From a virus: a stretch of 34,799 nucleotides of DNA. Location of the stretch: IMG/VR virus record IMGVR_UViG_3300012936_003239, positions 1 to 34,799 of that record. One strand, 5' to 3'. Position 1 is the first letter of the stretch; every line of letters starts with the position of its first letter. Under the pieces are notes generated by a model. That model made no database searches. It saw nothing but the letters and a program-made list of their open reading frames with translations, and was not told the origin of the DNA. Positions 9,583 to 33,800 of the stretch are shown one piece after another. Position numbers and translations under genes: made by a program.

Positions 9583-9590
9583 TATTTATT
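9583..9590 (-). promoter_or_regulatory. Late promoter box before peroxiredoxin gene
   Basis: AATAAATA on the minus strand overlaps the last codons of the SufS-type gene and lies 28 bases before the peroxiredoxin ATG. The leader between them carries AAGGAAC as SD. Confidence 0.55.
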
Positions 9591-10791
9591 TTACTTTGAG
9601 TAGAGCATATTGAAGTTCTTGGCAAAGTTTCTTACAATCTTCTTCATCATTGTAAGGAGCAAAACTAATTCTCACTATACCCTTGCCTCCGCTTATCCTG
9701 TCTACTATAGGGTGGGCACATACTTTGCCTGTGCGTATGGCTACGTCTGTGTTTGCCATTAACATACCAACGTCTGCACTATGTCCTGACTCTGGTATAA
9801 GTGTTATGATGTTGTTTGTGAATCCTTGTATTGGAAACACTTTACAATTAGGTAGTACATCAACACCATATGCAAGTAGATGTTTTAACACATCTTGTTC
9901 CTGCAAATATATTGTAGGGAAGCCAACATAAGTAAGCATCTCACATGCCATTCCGAATCCTATTATGTTAGCAATATCAGGAGTTCCTGGACAATGTTTG
10001 TCTACTCCTCTTTTAAGTTTTACATTATTAAATGTAACTTGTTCAACTGCACCACCTCCAAAATATTGTGGAAATAAATCATCAAAATCAAAGTTAGAAT
10101 ACAATGCTCCAATTCCAGTAGGTCCATACATTTTGTGGGCACTGAATACAGCAAACTCTACAGGTGTATCTGTTAAATCTATTTGTTCGTGTGCAACTGT
10201 TTGACAAAAGTCTACGCATACTGTAGCACCAAACTTATGAGATAAATCTGCAATAGCGGCCCAAGGTTGTGTTACACCTGTTACATTACTTGTTGCACAA
10301 ATACTAACTAATAAATCCTGATGACCGTTTGCATGTTCTTGTAATAGTTTTTCTAACTCATACATATCCACGCAACCATCAAAATCATTTATAGGGACTA
10401 CAATAAGTTGACCATTTTCAACAGACCTTCCTTGTGTAAGCCAAGGCACAATGTTTGCATTATGTTCTGCTTCTGTTACTAAAACTTTTTTAAATCCTTC
10501 CATCCAACGAGCAATAAGATTAAGTCCTTGTGTTGTTCCGCCAGTGAACATAATATTTTCAGGTGATACATTTATTAAATTTGCAACTTGTCCTCTTGCT
10601 ACATCTATTGCTACACTGGCACGTTCGCTAATTGCATACTCGCCTCTGTTAGTATTACTGCGATACTCTTCATAGTATTGGTTCATTGCTTTTAGCACAG
10701 ATGAGTGCGTTTGCGTACTTGCGGCGGAATCAAAGTAAGCCAGGTTTGGATTGTTTACAAGTGTTGGGAAGCCTTGTTTTAAGTCCAACAC
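9586..10791 (-). CDS. sufS: Cysteine desulfurase, SufS/CsdA (group II) type
   Basis: A 401-residue PLP enzyme of normal SufS length. Visible are the N-terminal YFDSAASTQ, the PLP-stacking His in TEAEHNAN (residue 110), the Schiff-base lysine in FSAHKMYGPTG (residue 220) and the catalytic cysteine in AIRTGKVCAHP (residue 358), set in the short R-x-G-x-x-C-A-x-P loop typical of SufS rather than IscS. It moves sulfur from cysteine to an acceptor for Fe-S cluster or thio-modification synthesis. No SufE or SufU is seen nearby. The start is GTG, one base after the clpS stop, so translation is probably coupled. A second desulfurase of the IscS type lies at 15185. Confidence 0.9.
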   Translation of the reverse strand: MLDLKQGFPTLVNNPNLAYFDSAASTQTHSSVLKAMNQYYEEYRSNTNRGEYAISERASVAIDVARGQVANLINVSPENIMFTGGTTQGLNLIARWMEGFKKVLVTEAEHNANIVPWLTQGRSVENGQLIVVPINDFDGCVDMYELEKLLQEHANGHQDLLVSICATSNVTGVTQPWAAIADLSHKFGATVCVDFCQTVAHEQIDLTDTPVEFAVFSAHKMYGPTGIGALYSNFDFDDLFPQYFGGGAVEQVTFNNVKLKRGVDKHCPGTPDIANIIGFGMACEMLTYVGFPTIYLQEQDVLKHLLAYGVDVLPNCKVFPIQGFTNNIITLIPESGHSADVGMLMANTDVAIRTGKVCAHPIVDRISGGKGIVRISFAPYNDEEDCKKLCQELQYALLKVK

Positions 10792-13201: not shown

Positions 13202-13337
13202 TCTCTTTATCCCTTTTTGCGTACCAATCGTGACTACAATATGCATCACAAAAAACATGCTGTTGGTCGGCCGTAAAGTATTTAACCTCTGTTAAGTCTA
13301 CCACCTTACCACAAGTGGAACATGGGAGTACTCTCAA
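13185..13337 (-). CDS. 50-aa zinc-binding (C2C2) mini-protein, TTG start
   Basis: The ORF starts at TTG, whose last two bases belong to the TGA stop of the upstream gene (TTGA overlap), with AAGGA upstream. It encodes 50 residues with four cysteines: PCSTCGK (C6, C9), then VFCDAYCSHDWY (C30, C34), a CX2C...CX3C arrangement typical of small zinc ribbons. The acidic/basic tail KRDKENDKQE is hydrophilic. Its 3' end overlaps the next gene by 17 bases. Zinc binding is inferred from cysteine spacing. It could be a small regulator or an RNA- or protein-binding accessory. Confidence 0.65.
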   Translation of the reverse strand: MRVLPCSTCGKVVDLTEVKYFTADQQHVFCDAYCSHDWYAKRDKENDKQE

Positions 13338-13813
13338 CCTCTTCTCATCCTTGCAATATCTTTTGCTTGATCTGTACCTTTCATAACAGGAACAGCATTA
13401 CTTTTGTGCATAGTTGCAATACCTTGTATAAGATCACCTGTGTACTTCATAGGCTCTTTCTTACGCATACCATCACCGCTGTTTTTGTATGTACCATTCT
13501 TCATTTGCTCTTCCATGAGACTTGGATACTTTTTGCGATGATCTTTGTCTTGTTCTGCTCGCCAATTAGTATCTGGTTTGCGTTTTGTAAATGTAGCAGG
13601 ATTACGAGGATCGGGACGTTTGATACGACCATAGCAATAATCAATATACTCTTCAAGTGTGTCGTATCTCATATGATGCATGTGAGTTTGCTTCATACGT
13701 TTGTTATGTTCTCTCCAACGTAATTCTAACTCAGCCATTTTTGCTTTAGTAATCTTAACTTTACGTTTACGAGTGTTAATGGTACTTAAACCTTGTTGCA
13801 AATGCATAGTCAT
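13334..13813 (-). CDS. Conserved phage hypothetical protein, basic, 159 aa
   Basis: A 159-residue, very basic protein. It opens with QGLSTINTRKRKVKITKAKM, follows with a helical RWREHNKRMKQTH and a YDTLEEYIDYCYGR segment, and ends in a Lys/Arg-rich half. The sort of N-terminus seen here recurs in hypothetical proteins of T4-like marine phages. Nucleic-acid or virion association is plausible from charge only. It has its own sigma70-type promoter at 13837-13864, and its SD (AGGAG) lies in the 3' arm of a hairpin. Confidence 0.75.
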   Translation of the reverse strand: MTMHLQQGLSTINTRKRKVKITKAKMAELELRWREHNKRMKQTHMHHMRYDTLEEYIDYCYGRIKRPDPRNPATFTKRKPDTNWRAEQDKDHRKKYPSLMEEQMKNGTYKNSGDGMRKKEPMKYTGDLIQGIATMHKSNAVPVMKGTDQAKDIARMRRG

Positions 13814-13851
13814 AAAAAACTCCTGTTACAGCATATAGTATAACAGGAGTT
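13814..13851 (-). promoter_or_regulatory. RBS-sequestering, terminator-like hairpin
   Basis: On the minus strand AACTCCTGTTA (13851-13841) pairs perfectly with TAACAGGAGTT (13828-13818) across a 12-base loop: 11 pairs, then TTTT, then ATG at 13813. The AGGAG in the 3' arm is the SD of that gene. Only RNA arriving from upstream contains both arms. RNA started at the local promoter begins in or after the loop. The same fold followed by six U could also act as an intrinsic terminator. Confidence 0.7.
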
Positions 13852-13864
13852 CATTATTTGTCAA
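13837..13864 (-). promoter_or_regulatory. Sigma70-type promoter (TTGACA-16-TATACT)
   Basis: On the minus strand TTGACA (13864-13859), a 16-base spacer and TATACT (13842-13837). The predicted start is about 24 bases before the ATG at 13813, inside the hairpin loop described above. Confidence 0.75.
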
Positions 13865-13870
13865 GTGTTA

Positions 13871-14038
13871 TTATACTAATCTCGAAGCAATAAACATTAA
13901 AAATGCTACTGTTCCTAGGAAAATAATACCGACTAGGAGTGCAAAGAATAGTATTCTGCCAGGACTAATATCCTCATGCTCTGCTTTTTTGCCTACGCCT
14001 ATTACGGCTTTTAAGGCATGTTTAATTAAAGAAAACAC
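13871..14038 (-). CDS. 55-aa single-span membrane protein, GTG start
   Basis: The ORF starts with GTG inside the last codons of the upstream 60-aa gene (17-base overlap). An in-frame TAG lies two codons before it, so GTG is the only available start. The product has a basic N-terminal third (SLIKHALKAVIGVGKKAEHED) and a membrane segment ILFFALLVGIIFLGTVAFLMFIA with a short RLV tail. It ends just before the sigma70 promoter of the next gene. Function not recognised. Confidence 0.55.
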   Translation of the reverse strand: MFSLIKHALKAVIGVGKKAEHEDISPGRILFFALLVGIIFLGTVAFLMFIASRLV

Positions 14039-14740: not shown

Positions 14741-15169
14741 TTATTTTGGAGGATTGTTGTGATGACGAATTGCTTTTTTCTCTTCCCAATTTTCAATGGC
14801 TTCTTGAATTGATTCCTCTGCTAACACTGAGCAGTGAATTTTGATTGGAGGAAGATCAAGTGCCTCAGCAATTTCTTTGTCTTTGATTTGTTGTGCTTCT
14901 TGTGTAGTCTTGCCTGTAAGCAGTTCTACAAACATGTGCGAACTTGCAATAGCAGAACCACAACCATATGTTTTGAATTTGACATCTTCGATAACATCAG
15001 TATCAGGATTAATTTTTAAGTCTAGTTTCATAACATCGCCACATGCTGGAGCACCAGTCATGCCAGTAGCAACATTTGGATCTTTAGGATCAAAACGTCC
15101 TACTCCGTTCTCTTTAGGATTGTTGAGAACTTTCTTAAATCTATCTACTACATCGTTTGAATATGCCAT
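14741..15169 (-). CDS. iscU: IscU Fe-S cluster scaffold
   Basis: A 142-residue IscU of nearly standard length. All ligands are present: C43 and D45 in GAPACGDVMKL, C70 in KTYGCGSAIASS, and H112-C113 in LPPIKIHCSVLAEE. The LPPIK stretch is the region recognised by HscA-type chaperones in cellular IscU. The scaffold receives sulfur from IscS and assembles [2Fe-2S] clusters. It follows iscS by 15 bases, as in bacterial isc operons, but hscBA, fdx and iscA are absent here. GGTAAATA ends 5 bases before the ATG and may add a leaderless late transcript. AAGG about 12 bases upstream could serve read-through translation. Confidence 0.95.
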   Translation of the reverse strand: MAYSNDVVDRFKKVLNNPKENGVGRFDPKDPNVATGMTGAPACGDVMKLDLKINPDTDVIEDVKFKTYGCGSAIASSHMFVELLTGKTTQEAQQIKDKEIAEALDLPPIKIHCSVLAEESIQEAIENWEEKKAIRHHNNPPK

Positions 15170-15184: not shown

Positions 15185-16447
15185 CTAGTGTGTATTCCAT
15201 TTAACTGTACTGAAATCCACACCGTCTAAGTACATATCCCATAATGGGGATAGTTCTCTGAGTTGTTCCATAACTCTAACCATTGTTTCTGCAACTTGAT
15301 CTACTTCTTCAACAGTTGTATTCTTACCAAAACTAAATCTAATACTGCTATGTGCTAACTCGTCATCTCTACCTATTGCTCTCAACACATAACTAGGCTC
15401 TAAACTTGCACTTGTACATGCACTACCGCTACTTACAGCAACATTATCAAGTGCCATTATTAAACTTTCGCCTTCTACAAAGTTAAAACTTATATTAAGT
15501 ATGTTTGGTACTTTGTGTTCTAATGAACCGTTAACGTATGTTTCTTCTATGGTTATAAGTTTGTTTAGTAATCTATCATGTAACATTTGTACATGCTTTT
15601 TGTTTTCTTCCATTTCAAGTTTTGCATATCTAAATGCTTCACCCATACCAACAATTTGATGTGTAGGTAATGTTCCCGATCTCATATTTCTTTCGTGTCC
15701 ACCACCATGCATTTGTCCTCTTAATCTTACTCTTGGCTTTTTCCTTACATATAATGCACCAATTCCTTTTGGACCGTAAGTTTTGTGTGCTGACAAACTC
15801 ATTGCGTGTACAGGAAGTTCTTGTAAATTAAAATCTATTTTTCCTGTAGCCTGTGCGGCATCAACGTGGAACATAATTTTCTTTTCAAAGCAAAATTCAC
15901 CTATGCCTTGAATATCATTTATAGTACCCATCTCATTGTTTATAAACATAATGCTAACAAGTACTGTGTCGTCTCTAACAGCATTCTTTACCATATCTGC
16001 TGTTACGATACCATCTTCATTTGGATCTAAGTATGTGACTTCGTATCCAATCCTTTCTAGTTCTCTACACGGATCTAATACTGCTTTGTGTTCTATTTTA
16101 GAAGTTACAATGTGTTTTCCTTTTGTATTGTAAAACTCTGCAATACCTTTAATTGCTAAGTTGTCTGCCTCTGTGGCACCACTTGTAAAAATAATTTCCT
16201 TAGGATCTGCTCCAACTAAGTCTGCAACATTGGCTCTTGCTTTTTCAACGGCATCTTCTGCCTCCCAACCAAAACTATGACTTCTACTTGCAGGATTACC
16301 AAAGTCGCCATCCTCTGTTAAGTATTGCAACATAGTTTCAGCGACACGTTTGTCGCATGGAGTAGTAGAGGCATAATCCATATAGATTCTGTCTCCCGTT
16401 GGTTGAGATTTTATTGCAGTAATATCTCTGTGTGCTTTATGATCCAT
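15185..16447 (-). CDS. iscS: Cysteine desulfurase IscS (group I)
   Basis: A 420-residue PLP enzyme, slightly longer than E. coli IscS owing to an N-terminal extension of about 15 residues. Key residues: YMDYASTTP near 22, H120 in [10 protein letters not shown]222 in [12 protein letters not shown] (Schiff base), and C344 in [20 protein letters not shown], the long flexible loop of group I enzymes. It provides persulfide sulfur to IscU, encoded immediately downstream, and in cells also to tRNA thiolation. The ATG overlaps the ferritin-like gene by 11 bases. All catalytic residues are intact, so this is not a decaying host fragment. Confidence 0.95.
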
Positions 16448-31091: not shown

Positions 31092-31111
31092 AATTAATTT
31101 TTCCTTTCTTT

Positions 31112-31119
31112 GATAAATA
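31112..31119 (+). promoter_or_regulatory. Late promoter box, leaderless arrangement
   Basis: GATAAATA, then CTACT (5 bases), then the ATG at 31125. No SD lies between box and start, or immediately upstream of the box. Confidence 0.6.
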
Positions 31120-31124
31120 CTACT

Positions 31125-33800
31125 ATGAACCTCAAAGACATAGTAGTATTATCAGAGACACCAGAAGACGAAGCCTTACTGGATAAGGCCGAGTCTGCAT
31201 TTGCTCAGGTCAGAGCAACAACCAAAGATATAAAATATGATGATACAGCCATTGAGATATTATCTAAAGTGGGTACTATTGCTGATGAACTAAGTCAAGA
31301 GGAAGTATTGCAAGAACTTGAATACTTAGAAAGAGCAGTATTCGACGCAAAAAACAAATTAGAATCTACAGTATACGGATTAGAAGAACCTTTTGAGGAT
31401 TTAATTCGCACACTAAGAAATAAAATCGACGATGAAGAATTAGATCGAGAGTATAACGAAGAAAGTAAATTTGCTCAACCACAACCAAAAGGCAAAAGCA
31501 TGTTAGATTTCATGCGTGAGCCTCCGCAAGAAAAGTTCCAATATAAAAAACACGAAAGTCCTTTAACAAACTTTGACAAGTATTTTAAATATTTCTTAGT
31601 TCCAAGAGGACTTAAAGTAGATTATCAAGAAGCATGGAATGACTTTAAAAAGGAATTTGGTCACATGTTTCCTCAAGATGATAATCCAAACTTCATGGAC
31701 GAAACAGCAATGGCAAACCCTGCCTTAGATGCCGAGTTTATTCAGTGGTTAGCAAAGAAAGGTGAAAACAGCCTATTCGCGTATAGATTAGGTGATATAG
31801 ATGACCCTGAGATAATGAACTTATTAAAGCAAGAGTATTATCAAGAGAAAGGACTTTATCCAGGTGATGGTGGTGCTACTGCCACTGATGCCGCAAAAGC
31901 AAGAGCAAAAGCGGCTGGCGATAGTTTACAAACTCACAGTATGCACGAAGATGAAGAAAACATGATTGGCGAGCCTGATGATTACTATGATGCTGAAGAA
32001 AGAAAAGAAGCATACCAAGAACTTAAAGATGCATTACAAGGCAACTACATGGACGACTATATCAAAGTTGGGGCATGTCCTAACTGTGCTGGTACTGGTT
32101 ATCAAGATGCTGAAGATGAAGTATGGGACGATGAAGAAGGCGAGTACGTTGAAGGAAACGAATGTGATGGCTTTGGTAGATACGGTTGTGATGAAGGTGA
32201 AATGATGGGTGCTAGTTGGGTTGACATTGTTAAACATGATGAACGTCAAGCAGAACGTAAAGCATTAAGAGACAAACCACAACCAAGCGACGACTTGCTG
32301 TACAAGTCTGCAAAACATTTACATAAAGAATACGTTATCGACAGAGGTACACATAACGCATTTGAAATAAGCAATTTATTAAGACAGATGTACCCAGAAA
32401 TAAGTAAGCCGAAGGCTAGGGAAATAGGTGCTAAAGTGTTAGGTGATTATAAACAAGAAAGTATACAAGAAGGTGTTAAAAGTGAGAAAGCAGTAAGAAT
32501 ATTAGTAGACATGTTCGATGATGGTCTTGATAATTTTAGCAGTGAAGAAGAATTAGAATCAGCAGTAAGCTCAGAAGCGGGAAGATTAACATACCAACTA
32601 GGCGACTTCGATATAGGTAAAGCAACTGAAGATGCTTTGACTATACTCAGAGACTATAACATGGATGACTATCCAGGCTCCATTGACAGAGATTACGATG
32701 CTAGATATGAAGATGTAGCACAAGGCTACATAACATTTTCTGATTTTATTAAAAAAGCAAAACAGACTCAAGAATTTAAAGTAATTAGAGATAAAGAACT
32801 TATGCTAAAAGCATATGAACTATTTTCAAAAGGTGTTGCTAAAACACCAGACGAAGCAATTGGTATGGCACAGGCACACATGGATAATATGGCTTACGAA
32901 GGTAAGTCACCACATAAAAAAGGCACAAAGAAATATAAGAAACACATGGCGGCTATGCATGCCGGTGAAAGTGTATTAAGTGGACCTACAAAGAAGAATA
33001 TGAGACTTAAAGAGTTAAGTCCTGCAAGAGATAATAGTGCAAACGAACAGAAAGTTGCTGAACTAATTAAAAAAGCAATCAAAGATCCTAAAGGTGAAGA
33101 TGCATATGATTTATATGCAGAACTAGAAAGTGAGAATCCTGAACTTGCTGACTTATACAAAGATGTAGCATTACATCAATACGAAGTTAATCTCGAAGAA
33201 GGCAAAGGTGCAATCAGAGGCGGACTTGCCGCTTTATTGCTTTTACTAGGATTGAATACAGCGAACGAATTCACAAGTGCTAAGAATACACCATTAGGAC
33301 AAGACTTAAAAGTAGCGGCACAACAAGCCGGAGAACATGCCGACATTGCTAAGTTTTATTACAAGAACTTAGATCTCTATGTTGAAGAAAACGACATGAG
33401 AACATTAGTAAACTTAAAAATAATGTTCGATAATGATGACCCAAGATTCGATCCAGCAAGAGATGATGTTGAAGATTTTCTCAGAAATCAAGCAAGATTG
33501 CCTGAGCCAACTAACGAAAGAAAGTTTAGAGATCAAGGTGTAATGGATGTTGTTACAGACAGAAGAGGCAAAGAGTTTAAGTTTGATAAAGATAGCAAAC
33601 AGTTCAAATCATTAGATGGTGAAATAGCAGATCCTAAAACTCCATTAGGTAAAGATTTGATGAGACTTAGAAAAAATCAAATGAAGAGAACAACACCAAG
33701 TTACAATGCAAAACTTAAAACACCGGGTGGACTTAAAACTGTAAGCAAAGAAGGTTGGAGTCCAGAGCAAGCCGGAAGAAAGTATTGGTGGTCTAAATAA
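31125..33800 (+). CDS. Very large modular phage protein
   Basis: An 891-residue acidic protein. The ATG at 31125 is used. The frame extends to a TTG at 31110, but that lies in the promoter box. Parts seen: an N-terminal helical region; a DnaJ-like zinc segment near residues 317-350 with CPNCAGTG and ECDGFGRYGC; a central region with long charged helices; a basic SPHKKGTKKYKKHMAAMHAG near 595; a hydrophobic GGLAALLLLLGLN near 705; and a basic C-terminus (GWSPEQAGRKYWW). The overall role is unknown: it could be a scaffold, an internal virion protein or an injected protein. The domain mix suggests fusion of several units. Confidence 0.65.
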   Translation: MNLKDIVVLSETPEDEALLDKAESAFAQVRATTKDIKYDDTAIEILSKVGTIADELSQEEVLQELEYLERAVFDAKNKLESTVYGLEEPFEDLIRTLRNKIDDEELDREYNEESKFAQPQPKGKSMLDFMREPPQEKFQYKKHESPLTNFDKYFKYFLVPRGLKVDYQEAWNDFKKEFGHMFPQDDNPNFMDETAMANPALDAEFIQWLAKKGENSLFAYRLGDIDDPEIMNLLKQEYYQEKGLYPGDGGATATDAAKARAKAAGDSLQTHSMHEDEENMIGEPDDYYDAEERKEAYQELKDALQGNYMDDYIKVGACPNCAGTGYQDAEDEVWDDEEGEYVEGNECDGFGRYGCDEGEMMGASWVDIVKHDERQAERKALRDKPQPSDDLLYKSAKHLHKEYVIDRGTHNAFEISNLLRQMYPEISKPKAREIGAKVLGDYKQESIQEGVKSEKAVRILVDMFDDGLDNFSSEEELESAVSSEAGRLTYQLGDFDIGKATEDALTILRDYNMDDYPGSIDRDYDARYEDVAQGYITFSDFIKKAKQTQEFKVIRDKELMLKAYELFSKGVAKTPDEAIGMAQAHMDNMAYEGKSPHKKGTKKYKKHMAAMHAGESVLSGPTKKNMRLKELSPARDNSANEQKVAELIKKAIKDPKGEDAYDLYAELESENPELADLYKDVALHQYEVNLEEGKGAIRGGLAALLLLLGLNTANEFTSAKNTPLGQDLKVAAQQAGEHADIAKFYYKNLDLYVEENDMRTLVNLKIMFDNDDPRFDPARDDVEDFLRNQARLPEPTNERKFRDQGVMDVVTDRRGKEFKFDKDSKQFKSLDGEIADPKTPLGKDLMRLRKNQMKRTTPSYNAKLKTPGGLKTVSKEGWSPEQAGRKYWWSK

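Follow-up and report, generated by a model that had tools for sequence, protein, structure and literature searches.

A promoter-embedded hairpin predicted to restrict translation of a small phage gene to RNA from its own promoter

A 34,799-nucleotide stretch of viral DNA, referred to here as the window, carries on its minus strand a 159-aa gene (13334-13813) preceded by a hairpin that pairs the ribosome binding site (RBS) and overlaps the promoter of the same gene. We consider it probable that this promoter-embedded hairpin gates the gene to RNA started at its own promoter. Promoter, hairpin, masking energies, conservation, covariation and independence from the U run were computed, and the scheme that follows, including the transcription start, the absence of translation, the timing and all expression effects, is predicted. 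RNA arriving from the upstream co-directional genes would carry both arms, fold and hide the Shine-Dalgarno (SD) sequence, or the start codon in leaderless relatives, and the gene would not be translated from it; where a U run follows the hairpin, such read-through RNA may also terminate just before the AUG. RNA from the own sigma70-type promoter would begin in the loop, lack the 5' arm and leave the RBS open. The gene would then be made only while its vegetative-type promoter is active, presumably in early infection, and would be insulated from later polycistronic transcription.

Promoter and hairpin at the window locus

The 57 bases between the 55-aa and 159-aa genes hold both the promoter and the inverted repeat. 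The parts of the locus are as follows.

13871..14038, minus strand: upstream co-directional gene for a hydrophobic 55-aa product, with its stop 57 nt before the ATG at 13813
13859..13864, minus strand: -35 hexamer TTGACA, part of an 11/12 promoter match, adjoining the upstream stop
13841..13851, minus strand: 5' arm of the hairpin, AACTCCTGTTA, lying 5' of the inferred start and so in read-through RNA only
13837..13842, minus strand: -10 hexamer TATACT with extended -10 TG, from the promoter scan
13829..13840, minus strand: 12-nt loop, with the remaining -10 bases and the inferred transcription start (~13830)
13818..13828, minus strand: 3' arm of the hairpin, TAACAGGAGTT, holding the SD AGGAG (13824-13820)
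13814..13819, minus strand: run of six T/U, SD-to-AUG spacer and possible terminator tail
13334..13813, minus strand: putatively controlled gene, 159 aa, MTMHLQQGLST..., phrog_27048-like, with the C-terminal motif HKSNAVPV

Read on the minus strand from 13890 to 13790, the order is TTGACA AATAATGAACTCCTGT TATACT ATATGCTG TAACAGGAG TTTTTT ATG. The sigma70-type promoter TTGACA-16-TATACT, with 11/12 matches, was the top scan match in 10-18 kb, and its 16-nt spacer ends in TG plus one base (extended -10); this putative promoter is of the host vegetative type. The transcription start was placed at the 7th base after the -10. The 55-aa product is probably a small membrane protein, and its gene is the predicted source of read-through RNA for the 13334-13813 gene. 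Pfam and PHROG searches assigned no function to the phrog_27048-like 159-aa product.

An initial annotation of this DNA had described an 11-bp perfect stem with AGGAG in its 3' arm, and this was borne out: the arms AACTCCTGTTA/TAACAGGAGTT (13851-13841/13828-13818) form 11 Watson-Crick pairs, 4/11 of them G-C, around the 12-nt loop. The 3' arm holds the only good SD for the ATG at 13813, and its end at 13818 is four bases short of that ATG. The hairpin was also said to end in six U; the run of six is present, but two of them (13819-13818) pair with the AA of the 5' arm and four are left unpaired. Likewise, the promoter does overlap the 5' arm as proposed, but only the first two bases of TATACT are within the 11-bp stem and the remainder lies on the loop side.

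This stem was the sole perfect inverted repeat of at least 11 bp, with at least 4 G-C pairs and a loop of 3-30, in the 34.8-kb window. Dinucleotide-shuffled windows contained a mean of 0.14 such repeats, and 13/100 had one; this chance was counted before overlap with a promoter and an SD was required, and that coincidence is additional. The RNA fold of 13875-13790 reached -23.2 kcal/mol (z = -4.5, with 0/200 shuffles as good), and the part downstream of the -10 alone gave -4.5 (z = +0.4), with no notable structure.

Masking was expressed as the free energy cost of opening positions -18..+3, the ribosome zone. Two RNAs were compared, one with the promoter region and one whose first base is the 7th after the -10; for the null, shuffling of the read-through RNA was confined to the sequence upstream of the start. 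Opening the zone cost 19.2 kcal/mol in the read-through RNA compared to 2.9 kcal/mol in the promoter-started RNA, while the null gave 6.8 ± 1.8 kcal/mol. The cost in promoter-started RNA was 1.9-4.1 kcal/mol for any start from -10+4 to -10+11. By computation, read-through RNA keeps the ribosome zone shut and promoter-started RNA leaves it accessible, in agreement with the earlier proposal, made here for the inferred start, that own-promoter RNA exposes the SD.

Apart from this locus, the window contains genes for a ClpX-like ATPase, Hsp20, bS21 and an endolysin. The same phage fragment also carries an Fe-S assembly set, made up of a NifU-like gene (14741-15169) and two distinct cysteine desulfurase-like genes (9586-10791 and 15185-16447, minus strand). 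The gene at 31110-33800 has a 12-bp perfect inverted repeat AATACTACTATG/CATAGTAGTATT at 31116-31150 (plus strand); its likely ATG (31125) falls in the 5' arm, the codons after it make up the 3' arm, and the start is predicted to be paired in any mRNA with both.

Occurrence and forms of the hairpin in relatives

Relatives of the 159-aa product were fetched from IMG/VR, and the family counts are samples among the matches listed. These comprised 201 distinct family starts, 148 of them with a sigma70-like promoter; the gene caller and the promoter scorer were home-made. A hairpin was called at a masking of at least 12 kcal/mol and z of at least 3, cut-offs that are arbitrary; the distribution is bimodal. 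By this measure 58 of the 148 distinct promoter-bearing members among the matches listed had a hairpin, with median opening energies of 17.7 kcal/mol for read-through RNA, 4.0 for own-promoter RNA and 6.4 for the null. The 68 listed hairpin-less members with good promoters required 6.4 kcal/mol in read-through RNA. Of 277 other start candidates with strong promoters at the same loci, 11 passed the hairpin criteria (among the matches listed), and several of these 11 were family members missed by the motif filter, which left out the hairpin-bearing L018, L019 and L168. A pattern scan for CTCCTGNTA-N8-24-TANCAGGAGTTTT matched 57 viral stretches, most of them with TTGAC upstream, a -10 that starts in the 5' arm, and a downstream gene of the same family.

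Among the matches listed, a TTGAC[AT] -35 was present in 58/58 hairpin loci and the extended -10 TG in 56/58 hairpin relatives, the -10 was within the hairpin in nearly all cases, and the -35/-10 pair was kept across the family, hairpin-less relatives included. A 31-member clade (again among the matches listed) kept a strong promoter and similarly tight spacing and had no hairpin, which indicates that the gene itself can do without the gate; the promoter is a feature of the wider family and the gate an addition. No separate terminator before the promoter was found as a substitute in hairpin-less relatives. The hairpin state switches at least 12 times on the family tree, which is partly a threshold effect. 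The putative element is conserved over a large group of uncultured phages.

The upstream gene was co-directional in 58/58 hairpin loci (home-made gene caller; among the matches listed). In most cases its stop lay 34-85 nt ahead of the ATG, a gap that promoter and hairpin occupy. Four family loci among the matches listed were called divergent, L004 being the clearest, and 0 had the hairpin, a number too small for a test of orientation. At the window locus, ribosomes completing translation of the upstream gene, 57 nt away, could interfere with folding of the hairpin. The upstream operon had been labelled late by the initial annotation, and this was not supported: the T4-type late motif TATAAATA occurred 3 times in the window versus 4.2 expected, and by this count no late-promoter signature stood above chance there. 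Early activity of the own promoter combined with read-through from late transcription is plausible.

Among close relatives the promoter stays and the form of the hairpin differs. L018 and L019 hold the form of the window, and a T-A to C-G change in L019 is present in both arms. In forms that have no U run, unrelated arms cover GGAG or the start, as in L032 (CTATTCCGTGC/GCACGGAGTAG), L095 (TTTTGCGCCT/AGGCGCAAAA) and L091 (TTTACGCT/AGCGTAAA). Within a supported 10-member clade, arms were replaced wholesale with pairing kept: five members (L245, L246, L250, L031 and L032) have GGAGTAGGC/GAGGTAGGC-type arms and no U run, and five (L252, L255, L256, L258 and L259) have CTCCTG-type arms and a U run. 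Lack of conservation of the arms in relatives had been named beforehand as evidence that would speak against the hairpin; what we found was that pairing is retained in many relatives, whose arms have compensatory changes or G-U pairs or have been replaced completely.

Seven loci (L001, L003, L005, L006, L009, L011 and L038) have a "leaderless" start, with TATAAT placed six bases ahead of the ATG. They share the palindrome AACCTGTTAT/ATAACAGGTT, with its 3' arm in codons 6-9; its loop contains the AUG, which takes part in an inner stem. In promoter-started RNA these L001-type loci have no space for an SD, and they represent apparent leaderless mRNAs in marine phages. The -10 also ends ~6 nt before the ATG in L002, L004, L007 and L012, without the leaderless hairpin.

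The proteins of L017 and L018 share the N-terminal part of the family with the window gene at 13334-13813 and have another C-terminal domain, with no HKSNAVPV; L018 has the same upstream hairpin. The L017/L018-type gene appears to be modular, with the 5' control region and the N-terminus conserved.

The same arrangement, with CTCCTG arms and CTCCTGTTAGTATAAT...TACTAACAGGAGTTTTT-ATG, was found at MazG nucleotide pyrophosphohydrolase genes in L123 (1823-1897, plus strand) and L141, and a MazG gene in L062 (6906-7000, plus strand) has a start-codon-masking hairpin, AAGGTCCAT/ATGGACCTT. These cases suggest that the device is not restricted to one gene.

A further hairpin was noted at an unrelated gene, MNILHNFLIPEA..., in L145 (6448-6540, plus strand), where a 16-bp perfect stem, AAAATATTCATAGTAT/ATACTATGAATATTTT, has the start codon in its 3' arm and the first -10 bases in its 5' arm.

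Masking, termination and DNA binding

The best surviving alternative is an insulating intrinsic (Rho-independent) terminator, in which the hairpin and U run stop read-through ahead of the gene, the own RNA escapes owing to the embedded promoter, and RBS masking is a by-product of compactness. We regard this as rather unlikely. It would fit the energy of the window hairpin (-16.2 kcal/mol), the stem-loop with a U run between SD and AUG, directly before the AUG, in 37/58 hairpins, and the UUUUC(U) that follows the 3' arm inside the coding region in the 7/58 leaderless relatives, which reads UUUUCU in the terminator account (counts among the matches listed). However, in 14/58 hairpins among the matches listed, three of which have TTTATT, the U run is absent or incomplete and the SD or the start is masked all the same, and forms with and without the U run occur within one clade. 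Unlike in an intrinsic terminator, the stem is A-U rich, the U run is optional, the promoter sits in the 5' arm and the 3' arm doubles as the SD; in the window only 4/11 pairs are G-C and four U are unpaired. A terminator scan did not call the site, whose 12-nt loop exceeds the loop allowed by that scan, and the T-rich stretch is equally good as an SD-AUG spacer. Since hairpins without a U run and leaderless hairpins are included, the property common to them is masking of initiation rather than termination or a DNA operator. This suggests that translation masking is the common function of the hairpins, and termination is a plausible extra in the U-run versions, with the same direction of effect.

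The dyad over the promoter and the palindromic arms could also mark a DNA operator at which a repressor or activator binds over the -10, a reading that we consider very improbable in view of how the arms vary. Among 23 distinct CTCCTG-type arm pairs, 95% of the cells pair versus 37-58% when the arms are slid, and 8 cells were changed on both sides versus 2.0 in shuffled sets. The covariation score was 0.148 compared to 0.081 when shuffled, with 0/500 shuffles reaching it, a comparison that related sequences can inflate. Three pairs were changed on both sides, and the arms covary, with C-G/U-A and C-G/G-C exchanges. In a wider set of 33, the non-Watson-Crick stem cells were G-U in 16 and A-C in 4, a small count but one biased as expected for RNA; the mismatches flanking perfect seeds, mostly loop positions and less informative than the count inside the stem, showed no strand asymmetry (A-C 65, G-U 64). 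Neither the fixed half-site spacing nor the conserved half-site sequence of a dyad operator was found: the arm centre distance was 21-32 bp among CTCCTG-type sites, and the arms belong to classes unrelated between lineages, each complementing the local SD or start. The G-U bias, the variable spacing and the unrelated arms indicate that a fixed protein operator is no explanation, and there was one such site in the 34.8-kb window.

It is equally hard to credit that the hairpin is a riboregulator (a temperature, protein or ribosome sensor) in a longer normal mRNA, with the promoter-like sequence not being the main start: RBS-occluding hairpins in primary leaders do exist, such as the conserved one that lowers translation and tunes sigG expression in B. 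subtilis, which shares conserved RBS occlusion with the present hairpin but lies in the gene's own 5' leader (PMC5942855), whereas here, among the matches listed, the -35/-10 pair is kept even without the hairpin and the -10 is inside it in nearly all cases.

Relation to known systems and significance

RBS-sequestering hairpins are described for T4 e, soc, 49, I-TevI/II/III and segB and for Aeh1 mobE in the available text of PMC3014915 and PMC2988022. According to that text, the long early and middle RNAs of the T4 genes are silent with the RBS paired, RNA from the late promoter, which lies in the 5' strand, is translated, and the effect for e is ~100-fold (PMC3014915, PMC2988022); PMC2988022 notes that every gene under this kind of control is a late gene. 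As in the T4 e type, the 3' hairpin strand here holds the SD and/or the start codon, and the proximal promoter overlaps the 5' strand at the sequence level, giving, from the inferred start, RNA without it. In contrast to that type, as far as it is described there, whose proximal promoter is of the late class (TATAAATA for e), the window has TTGACA-16-TATACT with the -10 in the 5' arm. In T4, by the same text, early read-through of late genes is silenced, while here the silenced RNA would be any that enters from upstream, possibly late. Due to the different promoter class, the window element is not a strict member of the T4 e type. The initial annotation had likened it to the T4 lysozyme logic with the promoter class reversed, and the sigma70-type promoter, with TTGAC[AT] in all 58 hairpin loci among the matches listed, upheld this; within the own-promoter-only gate reading, the element would be a mirrored version of the T4 lysozyme switch. 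The AUG-in-loop leaderless version and the U-run versions seen here are not among the T4-system descriptions in the available text of PMC3014915 and PMC2988022. Measured against that text, the e/soc/I-TevI logic is known; the present variant has a vegetative-type promoter, a leaderless version, arms replaced between lineages and conservation in an uncultured group.

IS10/Tn10 and IS50 are protected from read-through in a comparable way: the transposase RBS is folded away in RNA that enters from outside and stays open in RNA from the element's own promoter. That setting is a mobile element, while here a phage gene lies in an operon-dense region, and the window gene is phrog_27048-like, with no transposase.

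A DNA search of cultured phages for the window locus gave no match, and the search of 50,697 phage records brought up no cultured relative with the promoter-in-hairpin arrangement. The protein relatives in Delftia PhiW-14, C48C1 and BUCT-ZZ01 matched in the C-terminal part only; the gene of PhiW-14 and C48C1 overlaps its upstream neighbour, so the arrangement is not present there.

Going by sequence, many marine phages appear to carry a small gene behind a hairpin that would hide the RBS or start only in RNA from the preceding gene, and RNA from the own promoter should be translated. A wider reading, which we offer tentatively as a real possibility, is that marine phages repeatedly re-evolve or rewrite a hairpin with its 5' arm built around a vegetative -10, and that this own-promoter-only gate, the leaderless AUG-masking form included, locks phrog_27048-like and at least some MazG genes to early RNA from their own promoter and mutes them in later polycistronic RNA.

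If the gate operates as proposed, the choice of transcription start alone, with no protein factor, would decide whether the gene is translated, through a compact device with promoter, masking hairpin, SD and possible terminator within ~50 bp. It would explain how phages with dense co-directional genes could silence an early gene after upstream transcription takes over. The rule can be read from sequence and is therefore searchable across phages, and the metatranscriptome abundance of such genes would overstate their protein output.
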